Shown here: positions 5,732 through 40,144 of the stretch, in pieces | Layout of the letters: each line of letters begins with the position of its first letter | Position numbering within the stretch: the first letter of the stretch is position 1 | Origin: Uliginosibacterium gangwonense DSM 18521 | GTDB lineage: Bacteria > Pseudomonadota > Gammaproteobacteria > Burkholderiales > Rhodocyclaceae | Length of the DNA stretch: 40,542 nucleotides | Assembly (NCBI RefSeq): GCF_000373965.1 | Contig: NZ_KB892845.1 | Coordinates: forward strand, 156-40,697 | Reading direction: 5' to 3' | The notes under the pieces: model-generated | The model's input: the letters and a program-made list of their open reading frames with translations, nothing else | Told to the model about the DNA's origin: nothing | Databases searched by the model: none | Translations under genes and position numbers: made by a program

Positions 5732-6976
5732 ATGAGAACATATCTTTGTAAGGCGCTACTTGGGTGCTCCATTCTCGCCGCTGCAGGCGCACAGGCGGCA
5801 ACTACCATTACTGTGGCTTCTTTTCCAAGCCACGATGCCCAAGTGAAAGCGTGGCTCCCTGGGTTCAAGAAGGCTCACCCAGAAATTGAAGTCAAGCTTA
5901 TGAGTCTGGCTTTTGCTGATCACCACACTGCCATGACAACTGCGCTCGCAACCGGCGCTGGTTTGCCAGATGTGATGGCGATCGAGATTGGTTATATCGG
6001 CAAATTTGCCGAGTCCGGTGGTCTTGAGGATTTATCTAAACCACCCTACAGCGCACTGCAATACCAAAGTAAATTTGCTCGTTTCTCTTTCCCGCAGGCC
6101 ACCAGCGTTAATGGGGCTTTGATGGCAATTCCTACGGACATTGGGCCAGGGACTCTCTTTTATCGCAAGGATATCATTGAGAAGGCGGGTGTTACTGAGG
6201 CGGATCTTTCCAAGAGCTGGGAAGGGTTTGTTGAAGCGGGGAAGAAAATTAAGGCAAGCACGGGCGCCTATCTGCTGGCTAATGCCAAAGACATCAAGGA
6301 TATCTATATTCGCACGGGCCTGAAAGACGGCGAGGGGATCTACTTCGACAAGAAGAACAATGTGCTCGTGGATAGCCCTCGCTTCCATAAAGCGTTCGAG
6401 CTTGCCAAGGCCGTGCGTGTTGCCGGAGTGGATGCCAATATTCCGCCCTGGGGTAACGAATGGTCGGAAGGTTTTCGTCGTGACAAAATTGCCACCCAGA
6501 TGATGGGGTCTTGGCTGGCGAGCCACTTTGCAACATGGCTGGATCCAGATCACAAAGGCAAGTGGCGTTCCGCACAATTGCCAGGTGGTTCCTTTGCTCC
6601 ATTTGGAGGCTCCTTTTTTGCCATCCCTAGCAAATCCGCTAATAAGCAGGCTGCCTGGGAGTTTATCAAGTACGCAACGATGAACAAGGACGCACAACTT
6701 GAAGCATTACGTCTGGTGGATGCGTTCCCGGCCTTGATCGAGGCGCAGAATGATCCATTCATTGAAATGCCTATCGAGTATCTTGGCGGGCAGAATGCGC
6801 GTAAGCTCTGGAAAATTGCTGCCAACAATATTCCCGCCGTCAAAGTGAATCGTTACGATGCAACGGCTCAGGATATCGTTGATACTGAATTGAATAATGT
6901 CATGGAGCGTGGCAAGGATATTAATCAGGCGTTGGCGGATGCTAAAGCATTGATTCAGCGGCGCGCACGAAGATAG
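5732..6976 (+). CDS. ABC transporter sugar-binding periplasmic protein (family 1)
   Basis: The 414-residue protein has an N-terminal signal peptide (MRTYLCKALLGCSILAAAG, cleavage expected after AQA). The mature part is typical of family 1 solute-binding proteins: TTITVASFPSHDAQVKAWLPGFKKAHPEIEV, then the LPDVMAIEIGYIGKFAESG hinge region, a GPGTLFYRKDIIEKAG block and a C-terminal AAWEFIKYATMN segment. Such proteins capture mono- or oligosaccharides for an ABC importer. The ATG at 5732 is preferred over the in-frame TTG at 5699 because it begins the signal peptide directly and has a purine-rich AAGAAAGAGA upstream. It is followed by two glycoside hydrolases, suggesting hemicellulose-derived sugars as ligands. 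No permease or ATPase gene is present nearby. Confidence 0.9.
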   Translation: MRTYLCKALLGCSILAAAGAQAATTITVASFPSHDAQVKAWLPGFKKAHPEIEVKLMSLAFADHHTAMTTALATGAGLPDVMAIEIGYIGKFAESGGLEDLSKPPYSALQYQSKFARFSFPQATSVNGALMAIPTDIGPGTLFYRKDIIEKAGVTEADLSKSWEGFVEAGKKIKASTGAYLLANAKDIKDIYIRTGLKDGEGIYFDKKNNVLVDSPRFHKAFELAKAVRVAGVDANIPPWGNEWSEGFRRDKIATQMMGSWLASHFATWLDPDHKGKWRSAQLPGGSFAPFGGSFFAIPSKSANKQAAWEFIKYATMNKDAQLEALRLVDAFPALIEAQNDPFIEMPIEYLGGQNARKLWKIAANNIPAVKVNRYDATAQDIVDTELNNVMERGKDINQALADAKALIQRRARR

Positions 6977-27448: not shown

Positions 27449-30400
27449 TTGGGCGCCGGCAACACTGTCGTCAGGCAATGGTTTCCTTGGAGCACCGTGC
27501 TTCTGCGTGGAGTGTGGTCAAAAATCTCCAGCATAGAAGAGCCGCCGTTGCGTGCAGAACTCTTCAGTGCAGACCAGATGGAGCAGCACGGTAGGGCCCT
27601 TGCAGCAACGCATGCGCTTGCCTTGGGGCGTGGGCCAGATCTGCTGTTGCCGCGCCTTGCTGAAAACGAAGCGGTGTTGATCGGCGTTTGCAATGTGTTA
27701 GCGGGAGTCGTGACTGCCAAGAGTCGAATTACACCGGCTGCTGGCTGGTTACTTGATAATTTCTATCTGATCGAAGAGCAGATCCGTACCGCCAAGCGGC
27801 ATTTACCCAAGGGCTACAGCCGTGGGCTTCCACGCTTGGCACAAGGGCCATCGGCAGGGCGACCACGTATGTATGACATTGCGTTGGAGATTATTTCCCA
27901 CGGCGATGGTCGCGTCGATATTGAGGTTCTCAGCCATTTTGTGGAGGCATACCAGACCGTAACGGACCTTACCTTGGGAGAATTGTGGGCAATTCCAATC
28001 ATGCTTAGGTTGGCCGTGATCGAAAATCTGCGTCGGGTTGCGATGCGGATTTCAGCGGGCTGGAGTGCGCGTGATCTGGCCAATTCATGGGCTGACCGAA
28101 TGACGCAGATCATTGAGGAAGACCCCAAAAGCCTGATCCTGATTGTTGCCGACATGGCACGTTCCGATCCTCCTATGGTCAGTGCCTTTGTGGCCGAACT
28201 GGCGCGCCGCTTGCAGGGCAGGGGGCCAGCGCTGGCATTGCCTTTGACCTGGATTGAGCAGCGATTGTCTGAGTCGGGGCTGTCAATCGAATTACTCGTC
28301 CAGTCTGAAAACCAGCAGCAAGCAGCGGATCAGGTATCCATCAGCAACAGTATTGGCAGCCTTCGCATGCTGGGGGCCATAGACTGGCGTAATTTCGTTG
28401 AAACAGTCAGCATCGTTGAGCAAATTCTGTGTGAAGACCCTGCGGGCATATACGCCAAGATGGATTTTCCCACCCGAGATCAGTATCGCCATGCCACTGA
28501 ACGTATTGCCAAGGCTGGTGTTATGGCCGAAAAGGAAGTGGCTCGCAAAGCGATTGAGCTGGCTTGCGCAGGAGTGGTAATTGATGAGAGTACCGAGTCG
28601 AATGCTTACATGGGTCATGTGGGTTATTTTCTGATTGACAAAGGGGTTCCAGAACTGGAGCAGTTTGCGCGAGTGCATCTATCCGTGGGCACTTTGATAC
28701 GTCGTGCGATGCGTAAGGTCCCTTTATCGCTTTATTTGGGCGGGGTCGCACTTGTTTCGCTCATGGCTACGCTGTTACTCATGGTGCAGTTGCCTACGGC
28801 AGGCTTGGAGGAATGGATATTGTGGTCGGTCGGTAGCATTGCGCTCATAGCAGCCAGCCGCTTAGCGGTAGCTTTGGCCAACTGGGTGAGTAGTGTAATA
28901 GTCGCGCCACAGTCATTGCCAAAAATGGATTTTTCCAAGGGCATACCACCACAATGGCACACTCTGGTGATTGTGCCCACCATGCTGACCAGTGTTGCAA
29001 GCGTAGAAAATTTGATTGAAGCGCTGGAAGTACGCTTCCTAGCCAATCAGGACAAATATTTGAGTTTTGGTCTGCTCACCGATTTCGCCGATGCAGATCG
29101 TGCTACCTTATCTGAAGACGAGCCTATACTGGCATTGGCAAAAAATAGAATAAATAAGCTTAATGACAAATACTTTGCCAGTGATAGTGAGTATGCCCAG
29201 GGTGGTGTTTTCTTTCTCTTTCATCGCCCACGGTGTTGGAATCCACACGACAAGATCTGGATGGGCTATGAACGCAAGCGGGGAAAACTGGCGGCATTGA
29301 ACGCTTTCCTGCGCGGAGGTGGTCAGGACGCCTTTACACTTGTCGTCGGTAACACTGCATTGTTGGGTGATGTGAAATATGTCATCACGCTGGACACGGA
29401 TACGCAGTTGCCCCGTGATGCGGCGCGGCAATTTGTCGGCGCCATGGCACACCCTCTGAATCAACCACATTTTGACGCAACAAGGCTGCGTGTCATTAAA
29501 GGGTATGGAATTTTGCAGCCAAGTGTCGCTATCAGCTTGCCAAGTACCAATCGTTCACGCTATGCCCGCCTGTATGGCGGAGAACCCGGAATTGACCCCT
29601 ATACGCGTGCTGCATCAGATGTTTATCAAGATGTATTTGGCGAAGGTTCCTTCATCGGTAAGGGAATCTATGATATTGATGCGTTCGAGCAGGCTGTAGG
29701 GGGATGTTTCCCTGAGAACCGGATACTGAGTCACGATTTACTCGAAGGCTGTTATGCACGCTCGGGGCTGCTAAGCGATGTGCAGCTCTATGAGGATTAC
29801 CCAACTCGCTATATGGCGGATGTCTGCCGACGTTACCGTTGGATTCGTGGCGATTGGCAACTGGCCAGTTGGCTGCTGCGACGTGTTCCGGCAGGAGGCG
29901 CAAGTAGCTGTCAAAATCCGCTCTCTGCTTTGTCACAGTGGAAATTGCTTGATAATCTGCGCCGCAGTCTTGTACCTACGGCACTGATGGTCTTGTTCTT
30001 TACCGGGTGGTTGGTATTGCCACAGGCATGGGTTTGGAGTGCTTCTGTGCTGAGTTTCATATTCATCCCGTCTTTGTGTTCACTCATTCGTGAGCTGCTG
30101 CGCAAACCCGAAGAGGTGATGTTCAGGCAACACCTTATGGCGTTGGCACACTCAGCTTCCCGCCATTTTGGCCAGATGTTTTTTGAACTTGCGTGCTTGC
30201 CATATGAAGCTCTTTTCAGTCTGGATGCAATTGTTCGAACGCTCTGGCGCGTGGCAAGGGCCCGAGGGCATTTACTTGAGTGGAATCCGTCGAGCAACGA
30301 CAGCAGCGTATTTGCCCGCAATGCGTTCCTTAGCACTGTCCGCAAGATGTGGATCGCGCCGGTGTGCGCTGTGTTAGGGAGTATCGCGTTGCTTTTCATG

Positions 30401-33400
30401 CAACCGGTATCCTTGCCGGTTGCTGTCCCATTCCTGTTACTATGGTGTATTGCGCCTCTGTTTGCCTGGTGGATAAGCCTGCCATTGCAGCCTCACCAAG
30501 CAGCCCTATCGTCGGAGCAATTACTTTTCCTGCGTTGTATTGCTCGCCGCACCTGGGCCTTCTTCGATGGCTTTGTCAGTCAGGAAGACCACTGGCTGCC
30601 GCCTGACAATGTACAGGCGTATCGTGCGGTTGCGGTGACTCATCGCACATCTCCCACCAATATGGGGCTGGCGTTACTGGCGAACCTATCAGCATATGAT
30701 TTTGGCTATATTTCTAGCGGTAGCCTGATTGAGCGGAGTACCAATACCCTGCATACGATGAAGACCTTGGCTCGACATCGCGGGCACTTCTTCAACTGGT
30801 ATGACACCCTTACGCTTCAACCGCTGCCGCCGCTCTATGTATCAACAGTGGATAGCGGAAACCTTGCTGGTCACCTATTGACCCTACGTGGCGGACTTCT
30901 TGCGCTGAGCGCTCAACCGATTCTAGGAGGGCAGCTGTTTGAAGGGCTGAGCGATACGGTGAGGATTCTTTCGGAAACCTTGGGAGATGCTTTTGCAACA
31001 ACTATTGTGCGCGTGAAGGCATCCCTTGCCTCTATACAGCACCATCCACTCAATACCTTGAGTGCTGCACATCTGTCACTTGTCGATTTACTTCAGCATG
31101 TAAAGACACTGAATAACCTGCTTCCAGGAAATGCCCTTCCTACGGAAGCACTTGGGATGGAAATCATCGCGCCCGAACATGAGGCGGCTGCCTGGCAGAT
31201 GGCACTTGTCCAACAGTGCCAAGAAGCGCTGAACGATCTCGAAGCCCTGGCCCCTTGGGTGCAATTACCCGTTCCACCAGTAGGGCTGGAGGTGTTTCTC
31301 CGCACAGCAAATGTCGTCCCAAGCCTGCGTGCGCTATCGAAGCTGGATGATGTGCTGTGCCCCGCAATTGCAAGCCGGCTCGATCAAGGCGTTGATCCGG
31401 CTCAACGTATATGGCTTGAAAGCCTAGATCGAACTGTACTCACCGGTAGTCAGTGCGCCCGAGAACGCATCCTGGCGCTGGAGGCACTGGCGCAGACATG
31501 TCTTGAGCTCTCGCATATGGATTACGAGTTCCTGTTTGACAAGGCTCGTCGATTGCTCTCTATTGGCTATAACGCCGGGGAGCGTCGAGTAGATGCGGGC
31601 TATTATGATTTGTTGGCTTCTGAATCCCGGCTCTGCAGTTTTGTTGCCATTGCACAGGGGCAATTACCGCAAGAGAGCTGGTTTTCATTGGGACGTCTGC
31701 TTACGAGCACTGGGGGGGATCCGGTTTTGCTATCGTGGAGCGGCTCAATGTTTGAGTATCTGATGCCATTGCTGGTGATGCCAACCTATGACAATACGCT
31801 GCTCGATCAAACGTGTAAGGCCGCTGTTGCAAGACAGATTGAATACGGCCATCAGCGCGGTGTGCCCTGGGGGATTTCTGAGTCTGGCTACAACACGGTC
31901 GATCTGCATCTGAATTATCAGTATCATGCATTTGGTGTGCCGGGGCTTGGGCTCAAGCGTGGGCTGGCAGAGGATCTTGTTATTGCGCCTTATGCTTCTG
32001 CAATGGCTTTAATGGTTGATCCAGAAGAGGCTTGCCGGAATCTTCAACGGATGGCACAGGATGGGTTTGTTGGTAAATACGGATTTTTTGAGGCGATAGA
32101 CTATACCCCAGCCCGACAACGCCGGGGACGTTCCTGCTCAATCGTGCGTTCCTTCATGGCGCACCACCAAGGCATGAGTCTGTTGGCCTTGGCGTATTTG
32201 ATTCTGGATCGCCCTATGCAGAAACGGTTTGAATCGGAGGCTCAGTTTCAGGCTGTCATGTTGTTGTTGCAGGAGCGGATTCCGAAAGAACCCGCCTTGT
32301 TTTCACATACAGCCCAACATTTTGATCTGCGGTCAAATTCTGCAGCGGAAACCTCAATTCGGGTATTTGACAACCCAACCACCGCTATGCCCGAAGTTCA
32401 ATTGCTATCAAATGGCCGTTATCACGTCATGGTAAGCAATGCTGGAGGAGGTTACAGCCGCTGGAAAGATCTGGCGGTTACGCGTTGGCGTGAAGACAGT
32501 ACTTGCGACAATTGGGGAAGCTTCTGTTACATCCGAGATGTGGCAAGCGGCAGGTTCTGGTCAACCAGTTATCAGCCTACGCTCGAAATGCCAGAACGCT
32601 ACGAAGCGATCTTCTCCGAGGGGCGCGTTGAATTTCGTCGTCGTGATACTTCGAATTATGGCGAAAGTATATTTGATACCCATACCGAAATTGTTGTATC
32701 TCCCGAAGATGATATTGAATTACGTCGTGTGCACGTCACGAATCGTTCACGCCACCAGAAACAAATTGACCTGACAAGCTATGCTGAAGTCGTCATAGCG
32801 TCTGCTTCTGCCGATGCAATGCATCCCGCGTTCAGCAATCTATTTGTGCAGACCGAGATTCTTCAGGACCGACACGCAATTCTGTGTACCCGTCGCCCCC
32901 ACTCGGTTGGGGGACAGTCGCCTTGGATGTTGCATCTGATGGTGGTGCGCGGTTGTGTTATCGGTGAGGTTTCTTTCGAGACGGATCGGTCGCGCTTTAT
33001 CGGCCGTACTTGTAACGCTGCTAACCCGCAAGCGATGCGTAGCGCTGGCGCTCTTTCCGGTACTGAAGGTTCGGTACTCGACCCGATTGTGGCAATCCGC
33101 TGTCGCATCACACTCGAACCAGAACAAACGGCCATCTTTGACATTGTGTCGGGCATGGCCGATACCCGCGATATAGCCCTCAGCCTAGTTGAAAAATATC
33201 AGGACAGGCATCTTGCAGACCGTGTGTTTGATCTGGCATGGACCCATAGCCAGGTGGTCTTGCGTCAGCTCAATGCCAGTGAGGCTGAGGCCCAACTGCA
33301 TTCACGCTTGGCCAGTTCTGTCATCTATGCAAATGCTGTGTTGCGCACAGACCCTGCTGTGATCGTCCGTAATCGTCGTGGGCAGTCTGGCCTATGGGGC

Positions 33401-36265
33401 TATGCGATCTCAGGCGATTTGCCGATTGTGCTGCTCCAGATCGGGGATGCCGCCAACATCGATTTCGTTCGACAACTCGTGCAGGCGCATGCGTATTGGC
33501 GCCTTAAGGGGTTGGCGGTGGATCTGGTGATCTGGAATGAAGATCACGCCGGTTATCGACTACGCCTGCAAGAGCAGATCATGGGGTTGATCGCCTCCGG
33601 GATTGGGGCCAGCTTGATTGATCGGCCCGGGGGGATCTTTGTTCGTTCTGCAGACCAGATATCAAATGAAGATCGGATACTGTTCCAGTCAGTTTCCAGG
33701 GTGGTGATCTCTGATGGGCGTGGCTCGCTTGTTGAGCAACTTGATCAGCGTGGGCAGCCAGAGCCACGTGCGCCTCGCTTCGTCCCCAGCAGGTACGCTC
33801 AGGCAGAACATCCGGATGGCAAGAACCACGCGCGCGAGTTGCTGCTTTTCAACGGGCTGGGTGGTTTTACGCCTGATGGTCAGGAATACGTCATTACGCT
33901 CGCATCTAGTCAGACAACCCCGGCACCCTGGGTTAACGTACTGGCCAACCCACAATTTGGCAGCGTTATCTCTGAAAATGGCGTTTCCTATACATGGATG
34001 AACAATGCGCATGAGTATCGGCTTACCCCCTGGAACAATGATCCTGTGAGTGACCTTAGTGGGGAAGCCTTCTATCTCCGTGATGAAGAAAGTGGTCATT
34101 ACTGGTCACCGTCACCCTTGCCAGCACGTTCAGCAACCCCTTATGTTATTCGACATGGCTTTGGCTACAGTGTTTTCGAGAACACCACAGGAGGGATCCG
34201 TTCCGAGTTGTGGGTCTACGTGGCGTTGGATGCTGCGGTGAAATTTTCTGTACTCAAGCTTTGTAATGAATCTTCCCGACCACGAAAACTTTCGGTTACC
34301 GGATATGTGGAGTGGGTATTAGGGGACTTGCGGGCAAAATCGGCTATGCATGTGAGTACAGAGATCGACCCTCACACGGGGGCTGTGTATGCAAGAAATG
34401 CCTATAACACTGAGCTTGCAGACCGTGTTGCCTTCTTTGATGTGGATGACCTCACCCGTACTCTTACAGGAGATCGTACTGAATTCATCGGGCGCAACGG
34501 CTCGTTGCGTAACCCAGCAGCAATGAGCCGCACACGCCTGTCTGGCAAGGTAGGCGCAGCGTTGGACCCTTGTGCAGCAATTCAGATTGAACTTGAACTG
34601 GCAGAAGGGCAGGAGCGAACGATTGTTTTTCGCCTTGGTGCTGGACGCAATGCCGAAGATGCGGGAGCGTTGGTTCAACGTTTCCGCGGCACACTCGCTG
34701 CACGAGGCGCGCTCGAAGCGGTCCAGCGTTACTGGAGGGGCATACTTGGGGCCGTGAAGGTCGAGACCCCGGACCCCGCGCTCAACGTACTCACCAACGG
34801 TTGGCTGATTTACCAAACCCTGGCCTGCCGTATCTGGGCACGTAGCGGCTACTACCAATCTGGCGGTGCCTACGGTTTTCGAGATCAGCTGCAGGATGTG
34901 ATGGCACTTGTGCATGCAGAACCCGCCTTGGTACGCGCACACTTATTGTTATGCGCGAGCAGGCAATTCCAAGAGGGCGATGTTCAGCATTGGTGGCATC
35001 CCCCAACTGGACGCGGAGTGCGCACACGCTGTTCTGATGATTACTTGTGGCTGCCTCTGGCAGTCTGCCGATATGTCACGAGCACGGGCGATTTTGCCGT
35101 GCTTGACGAGCAGGTGTCTTTTCTGGAAGGTCGCCCCGTAAATCCGGAGGATGAATCCTATTATGACCTTCCTGGACGCTCTGCTGATGTGGCTAGTCTC
35201 TATGACCATTGCGCCCGTGCAATTCGGCATGGTCTGAGGTTTGGTGAGCACGGACTGCCGCTGATCGGCTCTGGCGACTGGAATGATGGCATGAATCTGG
35301 TGGGCGTCCATGGCAAGGGGGAGAGTGTCTGGTTGGGATTTTTCCTCTGTGAAGTGCTGCAACAATTTTCTGTGCTTGCGCAAGCACATGGCAATATTGT
35401 CTTTGCCGAAACATGCACAGCAGCGCATGTGAATCTTCGTACAGCGATTGAGCTGACTGGTTGGGATGGTGAGTGGTATCGCAGAGCCTATTTTGACGAC
35501 GGAACGCCTCTGGGAGCGGCAAATAACGAAGAATGTCAAATAGATTCCATATCACAGAGCTGGTCAGTGCTCTCTGGCCCTGGAGATGTGTCGCGTTCGA
35601 GCATGGGTATGGAGGCTGTCTATAAACGCCTCGTGCGCCACAGTCATGGGCTGGTCCAATTGCTTGATCCCCCTTTTAGCGCATCCGGGCTTGATCCAGG
35701 TTACATACGTGGCTACGTGCCAGGGGTGCGTGAAAATGGCGGACAATACACCCATGCCGCAATCTGGGTGGCGATGGCATTTGCTAAATTAGGGCAGGGC
35801 AGGCGAGCTTGGGAGGTATTCAACATGATCAACCCTGTCAATCATGCCAGAACGATCGAAGGGGTCGCCACCTACAAGGTAGAACCTTATGTGGTGAGCG
35901 CAGATGTCTATGCAGTCGAACCGCATATCGGTCGCGGTGGCTGGAGTTGGTATACCGGATCAGCTGGCTGGATGTATCGGCTGGTGGTTGAGTCCCTGCT
36001 TGGCTTGGTTCGTGAGGGGAACACACTTTATATGCGACCTTGCATGCCTAAAGAATGGATTGGCTTCAATTTTACATATTCTTATCGAGAAACTGATTAC
36101 AAAATAATCGTGTCGCTCATCGATGATAAAAGCATGGTGAATGGGGATTTCATTCAAATCAAGGTCGACGGTATTTTGCAGCTAAAGCCTTGCCTTACTT
36201 TGATAAATGACAAGAGTACTCATGAAGTCGACGTATATGTCTTGCCAGATTCAACTGAAATATGA
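27449..36265 (+). CDS. ndvB: Cyclic beta-1,2-glucan synthase (NdvB/Cgs-type, GT84 + GH94)
   Basis: This 2938-residue protein has the length and order of NdvB/Cgs. An N-terminal soluble region opens with PLRAELFSADQMEQHGRALA. Membrane helices follow near residues 425-480. The GT84 synthase domain has TLDTDTQLP near residue 648 and RRYRWIRGDWQLASWLL near 795; more helices lie near 830-1020. A glycoamylase-like region carries SWSGSMFEYLMP near 1430 and GVPWGISESGYN. The C-terminal GH94 phosphorylase-like half holds IGSGDWNDGMN near 2608, whose Asp is the expected general acid that trims chain length before cyclisation. Cyclic glucans are exported to the periplasm in osmoadaptation and host interaction. 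The TTG at 27449 is supported by GGAAAGGA at 27432-27439; the first in-frame ATG would remove conserved residues. Confidence 0.93.
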   Translation: MGAGNTVVRQWFPWSTVLLRGVWSKISSIEEPPLRAELFSADQMEQHGRALAATHALALGRGPDLLLPRLAENEAVLIGVCNVLAGVVTAKSRITPAAGWLLDNFYLIEEQIRTAKRHLPKGYSRGLPRLAQGPSAGRPRMYDIALEIISHGDGRVDIEVLSHFVEAYQTVTDLTLGELWAIPIMLRLAVIENLRRVAMRISAGWSARDLANSWADRMTQIIEEDPKSLILIVADMARSDPPMVSAFVAELARRLQGRGPALALPLTWIEQRLSESGLSIELLVQSENQQQAADQVSISNSIGSLRMLGAIDWRNFVETVSIVEQILCEDPAGIYAKMDFPTRDQYRHATERIAKAGVMAEKEVARKAIELACAGVVIDESTESNAYMGHVGYFLIDKGVPELEQFARVHLSVGTLIRRAMRKVPLSLYLGGVALVSLMATLLLMVQLPTAGLEEWILWSVGSIALIAASRLAVALANWVSSVIVAPQSLPKMDFSKGIPPQWHTLVIVPTMLTSVASVENLIEALEVRFLANQDKYLSFGLLTDFADADRATLSEDEPILALAKNRINKLNDKYFASDSEYAQGGVFFLFHRPRCWNPHDKIWMGYERKRGKLAALNAFLRGGGQDAFTLVVGNTALLGDVKYVITLDTDTQLPRDAARQFVGAMAHPLNQPHFDATRLRVIKGYGILQPSVAISLPSTNRSRYARLYGGEPGIDPYTRAASDVYQDVFGEGSFIGKGIYDIDAFEQAVGGCFPENRILSHDLLEGCYARSGLLSDVQLYEDYPTRYMADVCRRYRWIRGDWQLASWLLRRVPAGGASSCQNPLSALSQWKLLDNLRRSLVPTALMVLFFTGWLVLPQAWVWSASVLSFIFIPSLCSLIRELLRKPEEVMFRQHLMALAHSASRHFGQMFFELACLPYEALFSLDAIVRTLWRVARARGHLLEWNPSSNDSSVFARNAFLSTVRKMWIAPVCAVLGSIALLFMQPVSLPVAVPFLLLWCIAPLFAWWISLPLQPHQAALSSEQLLFLRCIARRTWAFFDGFVSQEDHWLPPDNVQAYRAVAVTHRTSPTNMGLALLANLSAYDFGYISSGSLIERSTNTLHTMKTLARHRGHFFNWYDTLTLQPLPPLYVSTVDSGNLAGHLLTLRGGLLALSAQPILGGQLFEGLSDTVRILSETLGDAFATTIVRVKASLASIQHHPLNTLSAAHLSLVDLLQHVKTLNNLLPGNALPTEALGMEIIAPEHEAAAWQMALVQQCQEALNDLEALAPWVQLPVPPVGLEVFLRTANVVPSLRALSKLDDVLCPAIASRLDQGVDPAQRIWLESLDRTVLTGSQCARERILALEALAQTCLELSHMDYEFLFDKARRLLSIGYNAGERRVDAGYYDLLASESRLCSFVAIAQGQLPQESWFSLGRLLTSTGGDPVLLSWSGSMFEYLMPLLVMPTYDNTLLDQTCKAAVARQIEYGHQRGVPWGISESGYNTVDLHLNYQYHAFGVPGLGLKRGLAEDLVIAPYASAMALMVDPEEACRNLQRMAQDGFVGKYGFFEAIDYTPARQRRGRSCSIVRSFMAHHQGMSLLALAYLILDRPMQKRFESEAQFQAVMLLLQERIPKEPALFSHTAQHFDLRSNSAAETSIRVFDNPTTAMPEVQLLSNGRYHVMVSNAGGGYSRWKDLAVTRWREDSTCDNWGSFCYIRDVASGRFWSTSYQPTLEMPERYEAIFSEGRVEFRRRDTSNYGESIFDTHTEIVVSPEDDIELRRVHVTNRSRHQKQIDLTSYAEVVIASASADAMHPAFSNLFVQTEILQDRHAILCTRRPHSVGGQSPWMLHLMVVRGCVIGEVSFETDRSRFIGRTCNAANPQAMRSAGALSGTEGSVLDPIVAIRCRITLEPEQTAIFDIVSGMADTRDIALSLVEKYQDRHLADRVFDLAWTHSQVVLRQLNASEAEAQLHSRLASSVIYANAVLRTDPAVIVRNRRGQSGLWGYAISGDLPIVLLQIGDAANIDFVRQLVQAHAYWRLKGLAVDLVIWNEDHAGYRLRLQEQIMGLIASGIGASLIDRPGGIFVRSADQISNEDRILFQSVSRVVISDGRGSLVEQLDQRGQPEPRAPRFVPSRYAQAEHPDGKNHARELLLFNGLGGFTPDGQEYVITLASSQTTPAPWVNVLANPQFGSVISENGVSYTWMNNAHEYRLTPWNNDPVSDLSGEAFYLRDEESGHYWSPSPLPARSATPYVIRHGFGYSVFENTTGGIRSELWVYVALDAAVKFSVLKLCNESSRPRKLSVTGYVEWVLGDLRAKSAMHVSTEIDPHTGAVYARNAYNTELADRVAFFDVDDLTRTLTGDRTEFIGRNGSLRNPAAMSRTRLSGKVGAALDPCAAIQIELELAEGQERTIVFRLGAGRNAEDAGALVQRFRGTLAARGALEAVQRYWRGILGAVKVETPDPALNVLTNGWLIYQTLACRIWARSGYYQSGGAYGFRDQLQDVMALVHAEPALVRAHLLLCASRQFQEGDVQHWWHPPTGRGVRTRCSDDYLWLPLAVCRYVTSTGDFAVLDEQVSFLEGRPVNPEDESYYDLPGRSADVASLYDHCARAIRHGLRFGEHGLPLIGSGDWNDGMNLVGVHGKGESVWLGFFLCEVLQQFSVLAQAHGNIVFAETCTAAHVNLRTAIELTGWDGEWYRRAYFDDGTPLGAANNEECQIDSISQSWSVLSGPGDVSRSSMGMEAVYKRLVRHSHGLVQLLDPPFSASGLDPGYIRGYVPGVRENGGQYTHAAIWVAMAFAKLGQGRRAWEVFNMINPVNHARTIEGVATYKVEPYVVSADVYAVEPHIGRGGWSWYTGSAGWMYRLVVESLLGLVREGNTLYMRPCMPKEWIGFNFTYSYRETDYKIIVSLIDDKSMVNGDFIQIKVDGILQLKPCLTLINDKSTHEVDVYVLPDSTEI

Positions 36266-36576: not shown

Positions 36577-37107
36577 TCAGTTGTCTGGGCTCAGCAGATA
36601 TTCCCGCACGAGTTCGCGCGCGCGATGTAGCCGACTCTTGACCGCCCCTGGCTGCTCCCCAAGGCGCTCGGAGATTTCCGCGATGGTCAGCTCTTCAAAA
36701 TCCCGTAGCAACACGATTTCAAGGTAGTGAGCAGGCAACGATTCGAGCGCGTGCGCGAGGTCAATTCTCAAGGCCTCATCAGTGCGGTAGGTCAACAGCT
36801 GCTCGGCCACCTCGTCTTCCAGTGGCTCATGCTTGAACATCATGCGTTCGAGCTTACGGCACTCGCGCTTGATGACGATGAACAACCAAGAAGAAAACGC
36901 CACTGCGGCTTTCAGGCTTGCGACCCTGCGTGAAATGATCAGCAGCGATTCCTGTACAGCGTCATCAACGTCACTGGCATGACAATGCCTGCGGGCATAG
37001 CGGCGGGCATCCGCCTGGCAGACCGCGAGCAGACGGGTGATCGCCGTTTGGTCGCCCGTCTGAGCCGCCAAGATTAGATTCTCTCGTTCGATCACGCTTG
37101 TCGCCAT
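36577..37107 (-). CDS. ECF-type RNA polymerase sigma factor
   Basis: The 176-residue protein has the two-domain ECF layout. Region 2 (about residues 15-85) contains DADARRYARRHCHASDVDDAVQESLLIISRR and SSWLFIVIKRECRKL. Region 4 (about 115-170) contains LESLPAHYLEIVLLRDFEELTIAEISERLGEQPGAVKSRLHRARELVREYL. It directs RNA polymerase to stress promoters. It starts 3 bp after the stop of the DUF2892 gene, so they share an operon. No classical zinc-finger anti-sigma gene is adjacent. A promoter of the form GCGAACC-N17-CCTCTTAG precedes the operon and recurs upstream of the two neighbouring operons, consistent with autoregulation. Confidence 0.92.
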   Translation of the reverse strand: MATSVIERENLILAAQTGDQTAITRLLAVCQADARRYARRHCHASDVDDAVQESLLIISRRVASLKAAVAFSSWLFIVIKRECRKLERMMFKHEPLEDEVAEQLLTYRTDEALRIDLAHALESLPAHYLEIVLLRDFEELTIAEISERLGEQPGAVKSRLHRARELVREYLLSPDN

Positions 37108-37110
37108 GGT

Positions 37111-37320
37111 TCAGTGCCCCTTATCGAGCTTGCGGCCCACCATGGCGCACATGGGGCAAAAACCCACCAAACCGGTCATGGCAAGCATAGCTCCCATGAT
37201 GCCTGCACCGACGGCCAAGCCCGAGGTACCCCAGTTCATGGCGGCGAACACGAGCGCCACCACACCTATGACGATGCGCAAGATACGTTCCCAGTTGGGG
37301 ACATTCTTCACGTAGAACAT
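37111..37320 (-). CDS. DUF2892 small membrane protein
   Basis: The 69-residue protein starts MFYVKNVPNWERILRIVIGVV, as in the DUF2892/YgaP transmembrane family. It has two hydrophobic helices (ILRIVIGVVALVFAAMNWG and GAGIMGAMLAMTGLVGFCPM). A CPMC motif sits at the end of the second helix. In YgaP this domain is fused to a rhodanese; here it stands alone. The paired cysteines could be redox- or metal-active. It is the first gene of the operon ahead of the ECF sigma factor; with no other anti-sigma candidate, a sensory role is possible but unproven. The ATG at 37320 has AAAGGAG upstream. Confidence 0.88.
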   Translation of the reverse strand: MFYVKNVPNWERILRIVIGVVALVFAAMNWGTSGLAVGAGIMGAMLAMTGLVGFCPMCAMVGRKLDKGH

Positions 37321-37359
37321 TTCAATCTCCTTTGGCGGTTGCGAGAGTTTGAGGACATC

Positions 37360-37376
37360 CCTCGCTTGCTAAGAGG
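37360..37376 (-). repeat. 17-bp repeat, copy 1 (upstream of DUF2892-sigma operon)
   Basis: CCTCTTAGCAAGCGAGG, read on the minus strand, is identical to 39154-39170 on the plus strand. It covers the proposed -10 element and the initially transcribed region of both operons. Confidence 0.8.
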
Positions 37377-37400
37377 AAACGAGCCAACAAAACGGTTCGC
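37369..37400 (-). promoter_or_regulatory. Predicted ECF promoter of the DUF2892-sigma operon
   Basis: On the minus strand, a -35 element GCGAACC (37394-37400) is separated by 17 bp from CCTCTTAG (37369-37376). The same pair and spacing occur in front of two neighbouring operons. GAAC-core -35 boxes are typical of ECF promoters. Confidence 0.7.
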
Positions 37401-37453
37401 AAGTGACTGAAAAAAGTGCGCCCCTATACGGTTGTAGCCTGTATGACGCCGCA

Positions 37454-38182
37454 TCAAAAGCGTGTTGTCAATGCAGTCAGCCAAGGCGGAGACATCTCGA
37501 CCAGCCAAGCCTCCAGTGGCTTGTCGGCTCCAGTAAGAATCAGCGCTGCAATGGCCACCATGATGGCTCCCAGCGCAATCTTTCCTGTTTTGCCTGCCTG
37601 CATCAGCTTGCCACGTACCTTCATCATGGCGGCACGCGAGAGGTAGGCAAGGCCAACGACCGGCATGGCCGCGCCGATACCGAAGATACCCATGAGCAAG
37701 GCAATCTGCGGTAGATGCGAGCCCTGGCTGGCCAACACGACAGCAGCACCAAGCGTCGGACCGACACAGGGGCTCCAGATCACGCCCAAGGCCAAGCCGA
37801 TGACAAACTGTCCTCTGAGGCCGTTGAGATTGAGCCGAGAAATGAAGGTGTTGCCTGCATCCCCAATGCTGGAGGTCGCTGACGCAAAGCGCTGTTGGAG
37901 ACTGGCAGACATCAACACCAACCCGAGCAGGCCCAGGATTGCAGCCCCCACATTTCGGATGATGGAGACATCAATGCCAATGGCTGTGCCTGCCCACGCG
38001 ATCAGCGTTCCGATGACGGCATATGACAGGGCCAGGCCACCCGCGAGGGCCAGTGGCGCGCGGGGATGTGCCGTCGTGGCCGAGCCCAACAGAATAGGCA
38101 GGATGGGCAGTACGCAGGGCGACAAAGTGGAGAGCAGCCCGGCCAGTAGACCGAAGCCATAGGAGCCGAGCCCGAACTCCAT
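37454..38182 (-). CDS. CcdA/DsbD-type thiol-disulfide transporter
   Basis: The 242-residue protein has six membrane helices and the two conserved cysteine motifs of the CcdA family: LSTLSPCVLPILPILLGSA near residue 18-36 and GVIWSPCVGPTLGAAVV near 134-150. CcdA moves reducing power from cytoplasmic thioredoxin to periplasmic thioredoxin-like proteins. Its ATG overlaps the stop of the exported thioredoxin-fold gene (ATGA), so the two are translationally coupled and that protein is its likely periplasmic partner. It is the last gene of the cytochrome c/thioredoxin/CcdA operon. Cytochrome c maturation is another known CcdA role. Confidence 0.93.
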   Translation of the reverse strand: MEFGLGSYGFGLLAGLLSTLSPCVLPILPILLGSATTAHPRAPLALAGGLALSYAVIGTLIAWAGTAIGIDVSIIRNVGAAILGLLGLVLMSASLQQRFASATSSIGDAGNTFISRLNLNGLRGQFVIGLALGVIWSPCVGPTLGAAVVLASQGSHLPQIALLMGIFGIGAAMPVVGLAYLSRAAMMKVRGKLMQAGKTGKIALGAIMVAIAALILTGADKPLEAWLVEMSPPWLTALTTRF

Positions 38183-38574
38183 CAGTAGCCCGCCTTCTTA
38201 AAGATGTTCTCAATGCCGGCAGGCGTGGTGTCACCAACCGAACGCGCCATTTCCTTGCCGCCCTTGAAGGCGATCAAGGTGCTTTGCATATTCACTTTGA
38301 ATTGCTTAAGGACGGCCTTGTCGGCGTCGAAGTCCACCGCCAGAATCGCCACATCCTTGTAGGCAGGCTGCTTGGATAGGTTCTCGACAATGGGCTTCTG
38401 GGCCTTGCAGGTCGGGCACCAGGTGGCAGACACATCCACCACGACCGGCTTGCCGTCATGAGCCAGTTTGTCGAAGTCTTGCTGGGTGAAGGGTTTGGGC
38501 TCAGCAGCGGATGCAATGGCTGCCCACAACGTGAGCGCAGTCATAGAAATGGCGAGGACGGCGGATCGTTTCAT
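38182..38574 (-). CDS. Exported thioredoxin-family protein
   Basis: The 130-residue precursor has a signal peptide (MKRSAVLAISMTALTLWAAI, ending near SAAEP). A compact thioredoxin fold follows, with active site VSATWCPTCKAQKP and VNMQSTLIAFKGGKEMARSVG, which lacks the exact cis-Pro sequence of cytoplasmic thioredoxin. CPTC suggests a periplasmic reductase or metal-thiol carrier, kept reduced by the adjacent CcdA-type protein. The ATG at 38574 is chosen because it starts the signal and is preceded by AAGGAG; the longer frame from 38616 is not supported. It lies 38 bp after the cytochrome c gene. Confidence 0.92.
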   Translation of the reverse strand: MKRSAVLAISMTALTLWAAIASAAEPKPFTQQDFDKLAHDGKPVVVDVSATWCPTCKAQKPIVENLSKQPAYKDVAILAVDFDADKAVLKQFKVNMQSTLIAFKGGKEMARSVGDTTPAGIENIFKKAGY

Positions 38575-38612
38575 GGTGTTCTCCTTGGGATGGGTTGGTG
38601 GGGAAAAGTGAA

Positions 38613-39044
38613 TCAATAGGCTGGCTTGAAGGTCTTTTGCAGCTCAGCCACATAGGTGGTCAGGTTGGCCAGCTCTTTGGAATTCCATGGCAACAGCTTG
38701 GCGGCCATGGGTATGACCATGCAAGCTTGCACCATCTCGTCTAGGTTTACACTCTTGAGGCTAAGCCGATCACGTGCCATCACCACCATGTGAGGGTACG
38801 GCTTGGCGAAGCTGGTCGAAAAAGCGCCATGGTTGGCGTGGCAGGAGGCGCACGACATCCCATTGGTAGAGAGCTTCGTGTCGTTGAACAGCACCTTCCC
38901 CGCTTCGGGATCGCCCTTCAAGGGTTTGTAGCCAGAAGGGCGGACGGTTGATGCCGCCAGATTAGTTTGTGCGAACGCCATGGACGCTGCCAGGGCAAGC
39001 CCGGTGGTGATGAGCACGCGCCGAGCAGTTGAGTCGAGTTTCAT
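38613..39044 (-). CDS. Exported monohaem c-type cytochrome
   Basis: The 143-residue precursor has a signal peptide (ARRVLITTGLALAASMAFAQ). One CASCH haem-binding motif sits at the start of the mature domain (GKVLFNDTKLSTNGMSCASCHANHGAFS). A downstream Met-rich stretch (VQACMVIPMAAKLLPW) could provide the axial Met. It should be a periplasmic electron carrier. The ATG at 39044 is chosen because of GGAGG at 39050-39054; a longer frame to 39368 is not credible and would cross the promoter. It leads the operon with thioredoxin and CcdA and has the shared ECF-type promoter 30 bp upstream. Confidence 0.9.
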   Translation of the reverse strand: MKLDSTARRVLITTGLALAASMAFAQTNLAASTVRPSGYKPLKGDPEAGKVLFNDTKLSTNGMSCASCHANHGAFSTSFAKPYPHMVVMARDRLSLKSVNLDEMVQACMVIPMAAKLLPWNSKELANLTTYVAELQKTFKPAY

Positions 39045-39073
39045 AGGAAGCCTCCTTTCACGGTGGTTGCCAA

Positions 39074-39105
39074 CTAAGAGGTGGTGGAAGATCAAAACGG
39101 TTCGC
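39074..39105 (-). promoter_or_regulatory. Predicted ECF promoter of the cytochrome c/thioredoxin/CcdA operon
   Basis: On the minus strand, GCGAACC (39099-39105) is separated by 17 bp from CCTCTTAG (39074-39081). The -10 lies 30 bp before the start codon. The sequence GCGAACCGTTTTG around the -35 is identical to that of the sigma operon. Confidence 0.7.
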
Positions 39106-39129
39106 GGCTGAAAAATTATTCTCGCGACC

Positions 39130-39161
39130 GCGAATCCGAACGCAACCATGCCGCCTCTTAG
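39130..39161 (+). promoter_or_regulatory. Predicted ECF promoter of the Cys-rich peptide operon
   Basis: GCGAATC (39130-39136) is separated by 17 bp from CCTCTTAG (39154-39161), 45 bp before the start codon. It is divergent from the cytochrome c promoter; the two -35 elements are 24 bp apart. Confidence 0.65.
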
Positions 39162-39170
39162 CAAGCGAGG
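39154..39170 (+). repeat. 17-bp repeat, copy 2 (upstream of Cys-rich peptide operon)
   Basis: CCTCTTAGCAAGCGAGG is the exact counterpart of 37360-37376 in the opposite orientation, each reading towards its gene. A further TCCTCAA follows 4 bp later in both. Confidence 0.8.
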
Positions 39171-39206
39171 ACCATCCTCAACCATCCATCTGTTAAGGAG
39201 AACTGT

Positions 39207-39446
39207 ATGAAGACCCAACTGAAACTGGCCTCGCTGGCTGCTCTGACCGCCGCCACCCTGGCGCTGCCCGCGGCAGCCCAAGAGGTGGCGACTCCGGTCA
39301 AGTGTGCACCCGTCGCCATGGCGAAATGTGGTGCGAAGTGTGCACCAAAATGCCATGCCAAAAAGCACCCGGCCAAGAAGGCTGCCAAGTGCGGGGCCAG
39401 CAAGTGCGCCCCAAAATGTGCTCCCAAGTGTGCGCCAAAGAACTGA
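39207..39446 (+). CDS. Small exported Lys-Cys-repeat peptide
   Basis: The 79-residue precursor has a clear signal peptide (KTQLKLASLAALTAATLALP, cleavage after AAAQ or AAA). The mature part is low-complexity, with eight cysteines, every one preceded by lysine: KCAP, KCGAKCAPKCHAKK, KCGASKCAPKCAPKCAPKN. With Lys, Pro, Ala and His making up most of the rest, it looks like a periplasmic metal- or thiol-binding peptide, or a precursor for modification. It has the general look of exported Cys-rich bufferin-like precursors, but no DUF692 enzyme is present. The ATG at 39207 has AAGGAG upstream. The His-rich protein gene starts 5 bp after its stop. Confidence 0.85.
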   Translation: MKTQLKLASLAALTAATLALPAAAQEVATPVKCAPVAMAKCGAKCAPKCHAKKHPAKKAAKCGASKCAPKCAPKCAPKN

Positions 39447-39451
39447 CCTTC

Positions 39452-40144
39452 ATGAAGAAGGCGCAGCCACGCTCACCAAAGCCCGATAACCGTCTGGCGA
39501 CGGCCGGGCTGCGCCTGCAGCAGACCTACGCAGGCCTGGCCGAGCGTGGCGAGCACCTGCTGGGTCAGTTGCTCAAGGGGGAGCCTCCCCGGCAGTGGAC
39601 ACACTACCCGGAAGACGACGCCATCGATGCTACCAGCAGCTATCAGTGGTTCTACCACTCACACAGCCCCGAGGATCGACCGGACGCGGTGGAGCATGGG
39701 CACGTCCACCTGTTTGTGCGAAGACCCCTATGGGGCAGAAGGCTGTACTCAAGATCGGAGCGCGCGTTCGCTGAACTGTGTGGCAACCCGTCCGCCAGTC
39801 CGGCAACACGGCATCTGCTCACCATCGGCTTCGACGCGAAGGGCCTGCCGATCTCGTTGTTCACGGTCAACAGTTGGGTGACGGGCGACCTGATGCTGGG
39901 AGCCGACCTGACCCTGGAACTGCTCTCGTCGATGAAGCTCGCCACCGGGCATCCCGAGGTTGATGCTGTCATCGAATCGATCGCCCAGCTCTGCGAACCC
40001 GAGTTGTGGGAAGTGATGCGGCGGCGGGATGACGCCCTGCGGCCGCATCAAGCTGCCAACAAGCTGCAAGACGAAACGCTGGAACTGCTCTCGGAAGTCC
40101 GCATTGATCTGGACGCTAAGCTGTGTGCTCTCATGAGTGATTAG
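39452..40144 (+). CDS. Uncharacterised His-rich conserved protein, partner of the Cys-rich peptide
   Basis: The 230-residue soluble protein has no signal peptide. I recognise no characterised family; it resembles conserved hypothetical proteins (possibly DUF6969, uncertain). Visible landmarks are a central WFYHSHSPEDR followed by EHGHVHLFVRRP, giving two HxH-type clusters that could bind a metal. HLLTIGFDAKGLPISLFTVNSWVTGD and a helical C-terminus with DETLELLSEVRIDLDAKL follow. The ATG at 39452 lies 5 bp after the stop of the Cys-rich peptide, so the pair is co-transcribed from an ECF-type promoter. Possible roles are modification enzyme, chaperone or metal loader for the peptide; none is shown. 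The long frame from 39302 overlaps the peptide gene and is rejected. Confidence 0.8.
   Translation: MKKAQPRSPKPDNRLATAGLRLQQTYAGLAERGEHLLGQLLKGEPPRQWTHYPEDDAIDATSSYQWFYHSHSPEDRPDAVEHGHVHLFVRRPLWGRRLYSRSERAFAELCGNPSASPATRHLLTIGFDAKGLPISLFTVNSWVTGDLMLGADLTLELLSSMKLATGHPEVDAVIESIAQLCEPELWEVMRRRDDALRPHQAANKLQDETLELLSEVRIDLDAKLCALMSD

Follow-up and report, generated by a model that had tools for sequence, protein, structure and literature searches.

An ECF sigma factor, its promoter motif and a putative periplasmic thiol buffer regulon in Uliginosibacterium gangwonense

The genome of Uliginosibacterium gangwonense DSM 18521 carries, on a 40,542-nucleotide stretch of contig NZ_KB892845.1 (hereafter the window), seven genes arranged in three operons, which encode a DUF2892 protein with an extracytoplasmic function (ECF) sigma factor, a cytochrome c with a thioredoxin and a CcdA-type protein, and a Cys-rich peptide with a DUF6969 protein, the last two operons being divergent. 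The locus raises the question of whether this sigma factor controls all three operons and what their products would build together. The best overall explanation, which we regard as quite probable, is that the sigma factor drives a regulon from three promoters and that the regulon builds a thiol buffer in the periplasm.

A bipartite promoter motif and the sigma factor family

Each operon is preceded by the same bipartite element, composed of a -35 box GCGAAYC, a spacer of 17 base pairs (bp) and the -10 sequence CCTCTTAG. All three sites are exact matches, namely promoter 1 (37369..37400, minus strand; -35 box GCGAACC) of the DUF2892–sigma factor operon, promoter 2 (39074..39105, minus strand) upstream of the cytochrome c–thioredoxin–CcdA genes and promoter 3 (39130..39161, plus strand) upstream of the Cys-rich peptide–DUF6969 genes. 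Promoters 2 and 3 are divergent, with 24 bp separating their -35 boxes, and the distances from the motif to the start codon are 48, 29 and 45 bases for promoters 1, 2 and 3, respectively. A 17-bp identity, CCTCTTAGCAAGCGAGG, extends across the -10 of promoters 1 (37360-37376, minus strand) and 3 (39154-39170, plus strand). The original prediction, made from the letters of the window, had described three sites of one architecture with 17-bp spacing before these operons and, in two of them, an identical 17-bp stretch spanning the -10, and the sequence and gene layout agree with it in each respect.

The prediction had also proposed a search for the motif in this genome and in related ones. In the 5,021,710-base genome GCGAAYC-N17-CCTCTTAG has only these three exact matches, with none further at spacings of 16-18, and the reversed pattern, which served as the control for the motif scans, has no exact match at the same spacings. 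With the spacing held at 17, there are three exact sites, none with one mismatch and seven with two, and the reversed control gives 11 places at up to two mismatches. The count within the window is unremarkable by itself, with four matches at up to three mismatches against a shuffle mean of 1.64 and with 10 of 100 shuffles reaching four; the motif takes its weight from its exactness and conservation rather than from this count, and on these two grounds a chance repeat was ruled out as the origin of the three sites.

Conservation was examined in a set of sigma factor homologues comprising the best 80 of 242 relatives, which have 56-90% identity to the window sigma factor. The 80 loci contain 117 copies of the motif at 17-bp spacing, with zero, one and two mismatches in 52, 40 and 25 cases, respectively, against no match of the reversed control at up to two mismatches. 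The other spacings between 10 and 25 give no exact match and five one-mismatch matches altogether. An exact site is present in 34 loci, a site with at most one mismatch in 58 and a site with at most two in 73. Each of the 120 sites at up to two mismatches, including the three of the window, was paired with the homologous gene that comes next within 700 bases, which is DUF2892 in 58 cases, the Cys-rich peptide in 21, cytochrome c in 11, thioredoxin in nine, the ECF sigma factor in five and DUF6969 in two, with 14 sites unassigned. The sites stand 19-31 bases before the start codon of cytochrome c, 38-61 (96 in one case) before that of DUF2892 and 46-56 before that of the peptide, while the offsets are wide for some of the thioredoxin, ECF and DUF6969 assignments, which an unassigned gene between site and start may explain.

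Among 297 genomes of the family the sigma factor was found in seven (E 1e-40) and the exact motif in five, all of which are among these seven (hypergeometric P 1.1e-9), and all eight exact sites sit on the contig of the sigma gene. The association extends to more distant relatives, with the motif at two mismatches upstream of a CPAC-type DUF2892–sigma operon whose sigma factor has 50% identity (genome G072), and at one mismatch upstream of a DUF2892–sigma operon of Ensifer (45% identity).

The element is followed, about 5 bp after the -10, by a dyad of the form GAGG(A)-N3..5-(T)CCTC, which in promoters 1 and 3 reads GAGGA-N3-TCCTC. The first copy, GAGGGATGTCCTC (37351..37363, minus strand), lies just downstream of the -10 in promoter 1, close to where transcription presumably starts, and the second, GAGGACCATCCTC (39167..39179, plus strand), just downstream of the -10 in promoter 3. 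A Watson-Crick stem of at least four pairs is present at 53 of the 58 DUF2892 sites, 17 of the 21 peptide sites and two of the 11 cytochrome c sites, against a rate of 0.14-0.18 in letter shuffles (0.18 for the DUF2892 and 0.16 for the peptide sites), and pairing in register amounts to 0.81 and 0.70 against 0.44-0.58 when the arms are slid. When the two leaders in the window were folded as RNA, the z-scores were -0.05 and -1.14. It is possible that the dyad, the sequence of which is mostly fixed, acts as a DNA operator or as a hairpin in the 5' part of the mRNA.

As a possible operator, the conserved dyad could be taken to mean that the bipartite element is bound by some other factor, either another sigma factor or a dimeric regulator, and that its linkage to this sigma gene is mere synteny. 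However, 292 of the 297 family genomes lack the exact motif, which is present only with the sigma factor; it marks related genes on other contigs too, and its position is autoregulatory. Moreover, a spacing fixed at 17 bp and a -35 box of the GAAC type are features of ECF promoters. We consider binding by another factor very improbable; in all likelihood, as judged from these sequence comparisons, the window sigma factor recognises the three promoters. The autoregulation and the local three-operon regulon of the original prediction are thus backed by the conservation of the motif with the sigma factor and by their genome-wide co-occurrence. The pair of sigma factor and promoter appears unusually sharp in its specificity, with an exact motif, a rigid spacing and three genomic sites.

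Three features go beyond what had been predicted: the regulon can be dispersed, in relatives it covers bufferin operons too, and an anti-sigma factor is not evident. A shorter motif, scanned across 40 whole genomes of relatives from the 80-locus set, was found in 58 places against three control places, with at least one in 34 of the 40 genomes. Seventeen motif-bearing stretches of these genomes, lying away from the first loci, were inspected; one is a sigma locus again (L094), ten carry regulon-like genes and six have no related gene. Three of the ten (L084, L085 and L098; thioredoxin–CcdA) are on what, judged by its length, is the contig of the sigma gene, at a distance of about 7-10 kb, and seven are on other contigs. 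The latter comprise cytochrome c–thioredoxin–CcdA together with Cys-rich peptide–DUF6969 (L086), Cys-rich peptide–DUF6969 followed by a bufferin precursor, MNIO and DUF2063 (L091), the bufferin precursor, MNIO and DUF2063 (L092), DUF2892 alone (L093), a CMD/AhpD-type protein under the motif (L089) and, in two Undibacterium genomes (L087 and L088), a secreted protein under the motif with a DUF3224 match below the cut-off. Since seven of the ten regulon-like stretches are unlinked to the sigma gene, the motif predicts related functions where it is unlinked too. Proteins judged by eye to be similar to the secreted protein of Undibacterium are encoded near the sigma gene in L012, L033, L034 and L036.

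Genes for MNIO (DUF692) are found near the sigma gene in nine of the 80 loci, and seven of the 14 unassigned sites precede a DUF2282 gene or a gene that precedes MNIO (L011, L014, L021, L029, L040, L042 and L070). On the IncC plasmid pYDC637 of Escherichia coli (L143/L147), the genes for DUF2282, DUF692, DUF2063 and DoxX lie 8-11 kb from the sigma gene, and a motif with two mismatches is present upstream of a DUF6789 gene; a DUF6789 gene also stands between the motif and the sigma gene in a Shewanella locus (L047). The sigma factor family occurs on plasmids of Klebsiella, Salmonella, Citrobacter and Providencia as well, pYDC637, which is conjugative, being the only plasmid examined. The source is milk, cattle or veal in 13 of the 21 enterobacterial plasmid records among the matches listed. 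These data connect a sigma factor family that appears to be uncharacterised with Cys-peptide defences of the periplasm, bufferin operons and a conjugative plasmid among them; in a literature search with most subscription journals outside its reach, no title or abstract among the matches listed describes this sigma factor.

Class and possible control of the sigma factor

The sigma gene (36577..37107, minus strand) codes for a protein of 176 amino acids consisting of regions 2 and 4 only, and its matches to Pfam Sigma70_r2 and r4_2 above the cut-off, together with its short length, place it among the ECF (group 4) sigma factors. The best Foldseek matches of its structural model, which is of low confidence, are to E. 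coli sigmaE. The motif before its own operon, matched exactly only at 17-bp spacing, has the sequence pattern of an autoregulated ECF promoter.

Three cysteines, C30, C42 and C83, are invariant in all 47 aligned rows (the window and 46 of the 80 loci) and kept in 78 of 79 rows of a wider set, where the odd row is a second, unrelated ECF sigma factor of L072. For the other sigma factors of the genome, the alignment covers all three positions in one and C83 alone in a further three, and cysteine is absent there in every case. The protein ends at residue 176, with region 4 ending at about residue 169, and has neither a C-terminal cysteine nor a Cys-rich extension. The triad as a universal sensor was weakened as a candidate by the sigma factors of G072, pYDC637 (68% identity) and Ensifer, which have lost C30 and keep C42 and C83. 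An analysis of Cys geometry in the AlphaFold model was dropped, the model being too poor (pLDDT, the predicted local distance difference test, 69).

No anti-sigma factor was recognised beside the sigma gene, no anti-sigma profile having been run on the neighbours or the genome; likewise, a Pfam scan of the seven window proteins revealed no domain of NrsF (DUF1109), the anti-sigma factor encoded along with the sigma factor in SigF/NrsF-type systems, with no NrsF profile run on neighbours or genome. Clustering of the neighbouring genes revealed no conserved partner of the sigma gene besides DUF2892 and the regulon genes. Given the lack of an evident anti-sigma factor, sensing of the signal may fall to C42 and C83 of the sigma factor itself, which we put forward as a tentative hypothesis only.

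The missing regulator could instead be the DUF2892 protein, a small membrane protein of 69 amino acids with a C-terminal CPMC motif (37111..37320, minus strand; YgaP-like transmembrane family, Pfam PF11127, E 1.1e-16), acting as a minimal membrane anti-sigma factor or as a redox or metal sensor co-transcribed with the sigma gene. It is the commonest neighbour, located directly before the sigma gene in 61 of the 80 loci. Among 11 Variovorax genomes, five have only the DUF2892 promoter, three have none, two have a site only in an unrelated place and one (G307) has two, and in G307 DUF2892 is unlinked to the sigma gene, yet still under the motif. In L011, L014, L084 and L098, other small CPxC membrane proteins are encoded in the neighbourhood of the motif or under it. 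However, of 17 sigma-bearing genomes without an adjoining DUF2892 gene, 16 have no copy at E 1e-8 (the search covered 18 of the 19 such loci, and some of the genomes are draft bins), which weakens DUF2892 as an obligatory anti-sigma factor; the protein is only 69 amino acids long, and anti-sigma genes usually lie 3' of the sigma gene, whereas DUF2892 precedes it here. Regulation by DUF2892 is thus rather unlikely.

The Cys-rich peptide, its partner DUF6969 and the surroundings of the cluster

The first gene under promoter 3 (39207..39446, plus strand) codes for a peptide of 79 amino acids (P0006), in which an apparent signal peptide is followed by KCxxK-type repeats with eight cysteines. It has no match in Pfam or NCBIfam and hence no DUF2282/bufferin signature among those families, and a search of plasmids for its relatives at E 1e-3 returned none. 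Homologues were read in 24 loci, of which 23 have 6-13 cysteines in KC-type repeats; the remaining one, L067, has 14, and its Cys-repeat segment (at about 5820-6146) is fused in frame to a cytochrome c domain. In-frame fusions of this kind also occur in the DUF6969 loci L101, L102 and L110. The signal peptide is near-identical in 22 of the 24 homologues, L067 and L068 deviating. In 13 loci with both the peptide and thioredoxin, the close ones L004, L006 and L010 being excluded, identity of the peptide is 0.84 over the first 24 residues and 0.61 over the remainder, against 0.44 and 0.65 for thioredoxin in the same loci and 0.50 and 0.77 for cytochrome c (six loci). A conserved leader, a variable core and a dedicated partner gene are the general marks of precursors of ribosomally synthesised and post-translationally modified peptides (RiPPs), and by its sequence the peptide looks like a RiPP-like precursor.

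The partner gene (39452..40144, plus strand) encodes a DUF6969 protein (Pfam PF22308, E 4e-52) with no evident signal peptide and with an invariant set of His and Asp residues. Among the 80 sigma loci the peptide was found in 21, all with DUF6969, and four further loci have DUF6969 without a peptide match at E 1e-3, one of them being the fusion locus L067. In an alignment of 25 rows, H51, D56, D59, H69, H71, H84, H86, H121, N140, W142 and D146 are invariant.

The pairing was also seen in an independent sample of 274 genomes of the class, 26 of which have DUF6969, a protein missing from all 14 control genomes. The sigma profile (E 1e-30) matches two of the 274, and because only the genome of U. 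gangwonense has both the sigma factor and DUF6969, the association of DUF6969 with the peptide is independent of the sigma factor search. As judged by eye, and with the locus of the window included, DUF6969 stands in 23 of the 26 loci with a short Cys-repeat peptide, exported or anchored in the membrane, or with a repeat-bearing cytochrome c, and without such a partner in L107, L108 and L125. The repeats are of NPCAAK, SPCGL, TCAAT, GCC and KC types; in L102 they are fused to cytochrome c, with a thioredoxin gene between the fusion and DUF6969, and L118 has two repeats only. An automatic count found at least four Cys repeats within 60 residues in 16 of the 26 loci against 12 of 112 background windows and at least five in 11 of 26 against five of 112, the pattern being weak at three repeats, where 35 of the 112 background windows match. 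In L104 CcdA is encoded on one side of DUF6969 and a bufferin precursor with MNIO on the other. In the 25 other DUF6969 loci, covered as stretches of 2.5-3.6 kb, the sigma motif is missing at up to two mismatches, so that control of DUF6969 mostly lies elsewhere. In several loci from L116 onwards, the peptide has PCGL/PCSL repeats and a membrane-anchor leader with a conserved 'DHTRH', and we take genes nearby to code for YeeE-like transporter and rhodanese-like proteins.

Whether DUF6969 modifies the peptide is a finely balanced matter. The AlphaFold model of the protein is confident (pLDDT 90.4, predicted template modelling score 0.87), and no PDB fold matches it at E 0.001 or better; nor does its sequence match any PDB entry below E 0.23, and no paper naming DUF6969 emerged from the literature search, which left out most subscription journals. 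The lack of a catalytic homologue by PDB fold or sequence, or of one named in the literature searched, would suit a chaperone, a metal-loading factor or an unrelated neighbour, and we give such a non-enzymatic role about an even chance. However, a Cys-repeat peptide accompanies DUF6969 in 23 of 26 loci although the repeats differ widely, the conserved leader and variable core of the peptide are RiPP-like, and the invariant residues other than W142 resemble a metal site. Modification of the peptide by DUF6969, suggested by these sequence features, is a reading to which we give slightly less than even weight. The full proposal is rather doubtful as a whole, namely that DUF6969 is a new metalloenzyme family modifying KCxxK, NPCAAK, SPCGL, TCAAT and GCC peptides for an MNIO-independent metal or oxidant buffering, here under an anti-sigma-free ECF factor sensing stress via its region-2 cysteines. 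DUF6969, which usually accompanies Cys-repeat peptides of diverse kinds, is a possible new family of peptide-modifying enzymes.

Promoter 2 precedes the genes for a monohaem cytochrome c with a CASCH motif (38613..39044, minus strand; Pfam SoxA-TsdA cytochrome c), a thioredoxin with a CPTC motif (38182..38574, minus strand; Pfam PF00085) and a CcdA/DsbD-type transmembrane electron carrier (37454..38182, minus strand; Pfam PF02683). The first two have apparent signal peptides, as judged by eye from the N-termini. An Rfam scan across the cluster gave no match at the gathering score, and sigma-70-type promoters and terminators in the cluster show no excess over shuffles.

A single open reading frame of 2938 codons (27449-36265), presumably for an enzyme resembling cyclic beta-glucan synthases or GH94-type enzymes, ends shortly upstream of the cluster, and transposase-like pieces of open reading frames, which we take to be of an IS5-like element, lie directly beyond it at the contig end (40285-40542). 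Within the family sample, seven further members of the genus lack both the sigma factor and the motif, so the cluster may have been acquired; together, the transposase-like pieces and the lack of the sigma factor in the seven congeners are hints of horizontal acquisition.

Proposed function and comparison with known systems

In the proposed mechanism, the sigma factor would drive its own DUF2892–sigma operon in a positive feedback, and also the two divergent operons. The trigger would be metal (copper-like) or oxidant stress in the periplasm, sensed by the conserved C42 and C83 of the sigma factor, possibly together with the regulon's own small CPxC membrane proteins. DUF6969 would act on the peptide prior to export, and the exported thiol-rich peptide could then bind metal or soak up oxidant in the periplasm. 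CcdA and thioredoxin would move electrons across the membrane, so that the thiols of the peptide and the haem-binding cysteines of the cytochrome are kept reduced. A role in periplasmic metal or oxidant stress is suggested by the company of CcdA–thioredoxin, cytochrome c and the Cys-repeat peptide, and by the bufferin operons in some relatives.

The main rival explanation is that the peptide serves as an oxidant scavenger, a sacrificial periplasmic thiol re-reduced by CcdA–thioredoxin. It would fit the divergent arrangement of the thioredoxin–CcdA reductant pathway and the peptide under the same type of promoter, as well as the CMD/AhpD-type protein under the motif in L089, and the SigF/NrsF, mrpX and yedYZ system is a described analogue (PMC4623255). 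However, the motif also precedes bufferin-type operons, and bufferins and Gig have been linked to copper (PMC12452194, PMC10304878), while Cys-repeat cores suggest chelation. We regard scavenging as a serious possibility that falls short of being likely, and lean towards a periplasmic thiol or metal buffer that would be bufferin-like in operation.

Several observations weigh against the sigma-driven thiol buffer. The assignment to metal or oxidant rests solely on gene company. Seven of the 80 sigma loci have no site at up to two mismatches; two of these (L064 and L073) start at a contig edge and two (L023 and L063) show degenerate or 18-bp-spaced versions, and in L005, L054 and L061 no version of the motif was seen. 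The sigma gene of pYDC637 has no motif site before it. Nothing related was found in six of the 17 inspected stretches (L090, L095, L096, L097, L099 and L100), where the motif is probably due to chance. To these are added the loss of C30 in three relatives, the poor sigma factor model and the genomes lacking DUF2892, as described above. In known systems, the authors of the work on Cupriavidus metallidurans obtained no evidence of gig expression driven by RpoQ (PMC10304878), and in Caulobacter metal resistance is reported not to require SigF or two of the targets it controls (PMC3511200).

SigF/NrsF-type systems belong to the ECF16 group. Bufferins are reported to help cells grow when stressed by copper (PMC12452194), the copper resistance of C. 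metallidurans is due in part to Gig, with gig adjoining the sigma gene rpoQ (PMC10304878), and SigF of Caulobacter controls DUF2282–DUF692 operons under chromium stress (PMC3511200). The cluster in the window resembles these bufferin operons (Caulobacter SigF/NrsF; C. metallidurans RpoQ/RsqA with gigPABT) in that an ECF gene lies near an operon for a small exported peptide containing Cys, and in some relatives its sigma factor family and motif stand by DUF2282–MNIO–DUF2063–DoxX operons. Unlike them, the window has no DUF2282, MNIO (DUF692) or DUF2063, with DUF6969 in the partner place, and its seven genes include no NrsF/RsqA-like gene; the peptide has KCxxK repeats, and CcdA, thioredoxin and cytochrome c are added.

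The Cys-repeat RiPP precursor MmrA of Microbulbifer, which is made into its product by an MNIO and has a leader better conserved than its core (PMC12538549), shares with the window peptide a conserved leader, a variable number of Cys units and an adjoining dedicated partner gene, whereas the partner in the window is DUF6969 rather than MNIO/DUF2063 and modification here is only predicted. In CorE, CorE2 and OrbS, cysteines can turn the sigma factor into a metal sensor (PMC9023288, PMC8999054); these, too, are ECF sigma factors without an evident anti-sigma factor and with group-conserved cysteines, but theirs lie in a C-terminal Cys-rich extension and those of the window sigma factor in the region-2 half (C30, C42 and C83). 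The Met-rich peptide/YedYZ hypochlorite system of perchlorate reducers, controlled by SigF/NrsF (PMC4623255), likewise combines an ECF sigma factor, a periplasmic peptide (MrpX) rich in one residue and a dedicated reductase system, while in the window Cys takes the place of Met and CcdA–thioredoxin that of YedYZ, and no NrsF is seen adjoining. Finally, the Scs (suppressor of copper sensitivity) systems reportedly also tie periplasmic thioredoxin-fold proteins to copper tolerance; the window differs from them in having an ordinary thioredoxin with CcdA and no recognised trimeric isomerase, and in combining these with a Cys-rich peptide and putative ECF control.

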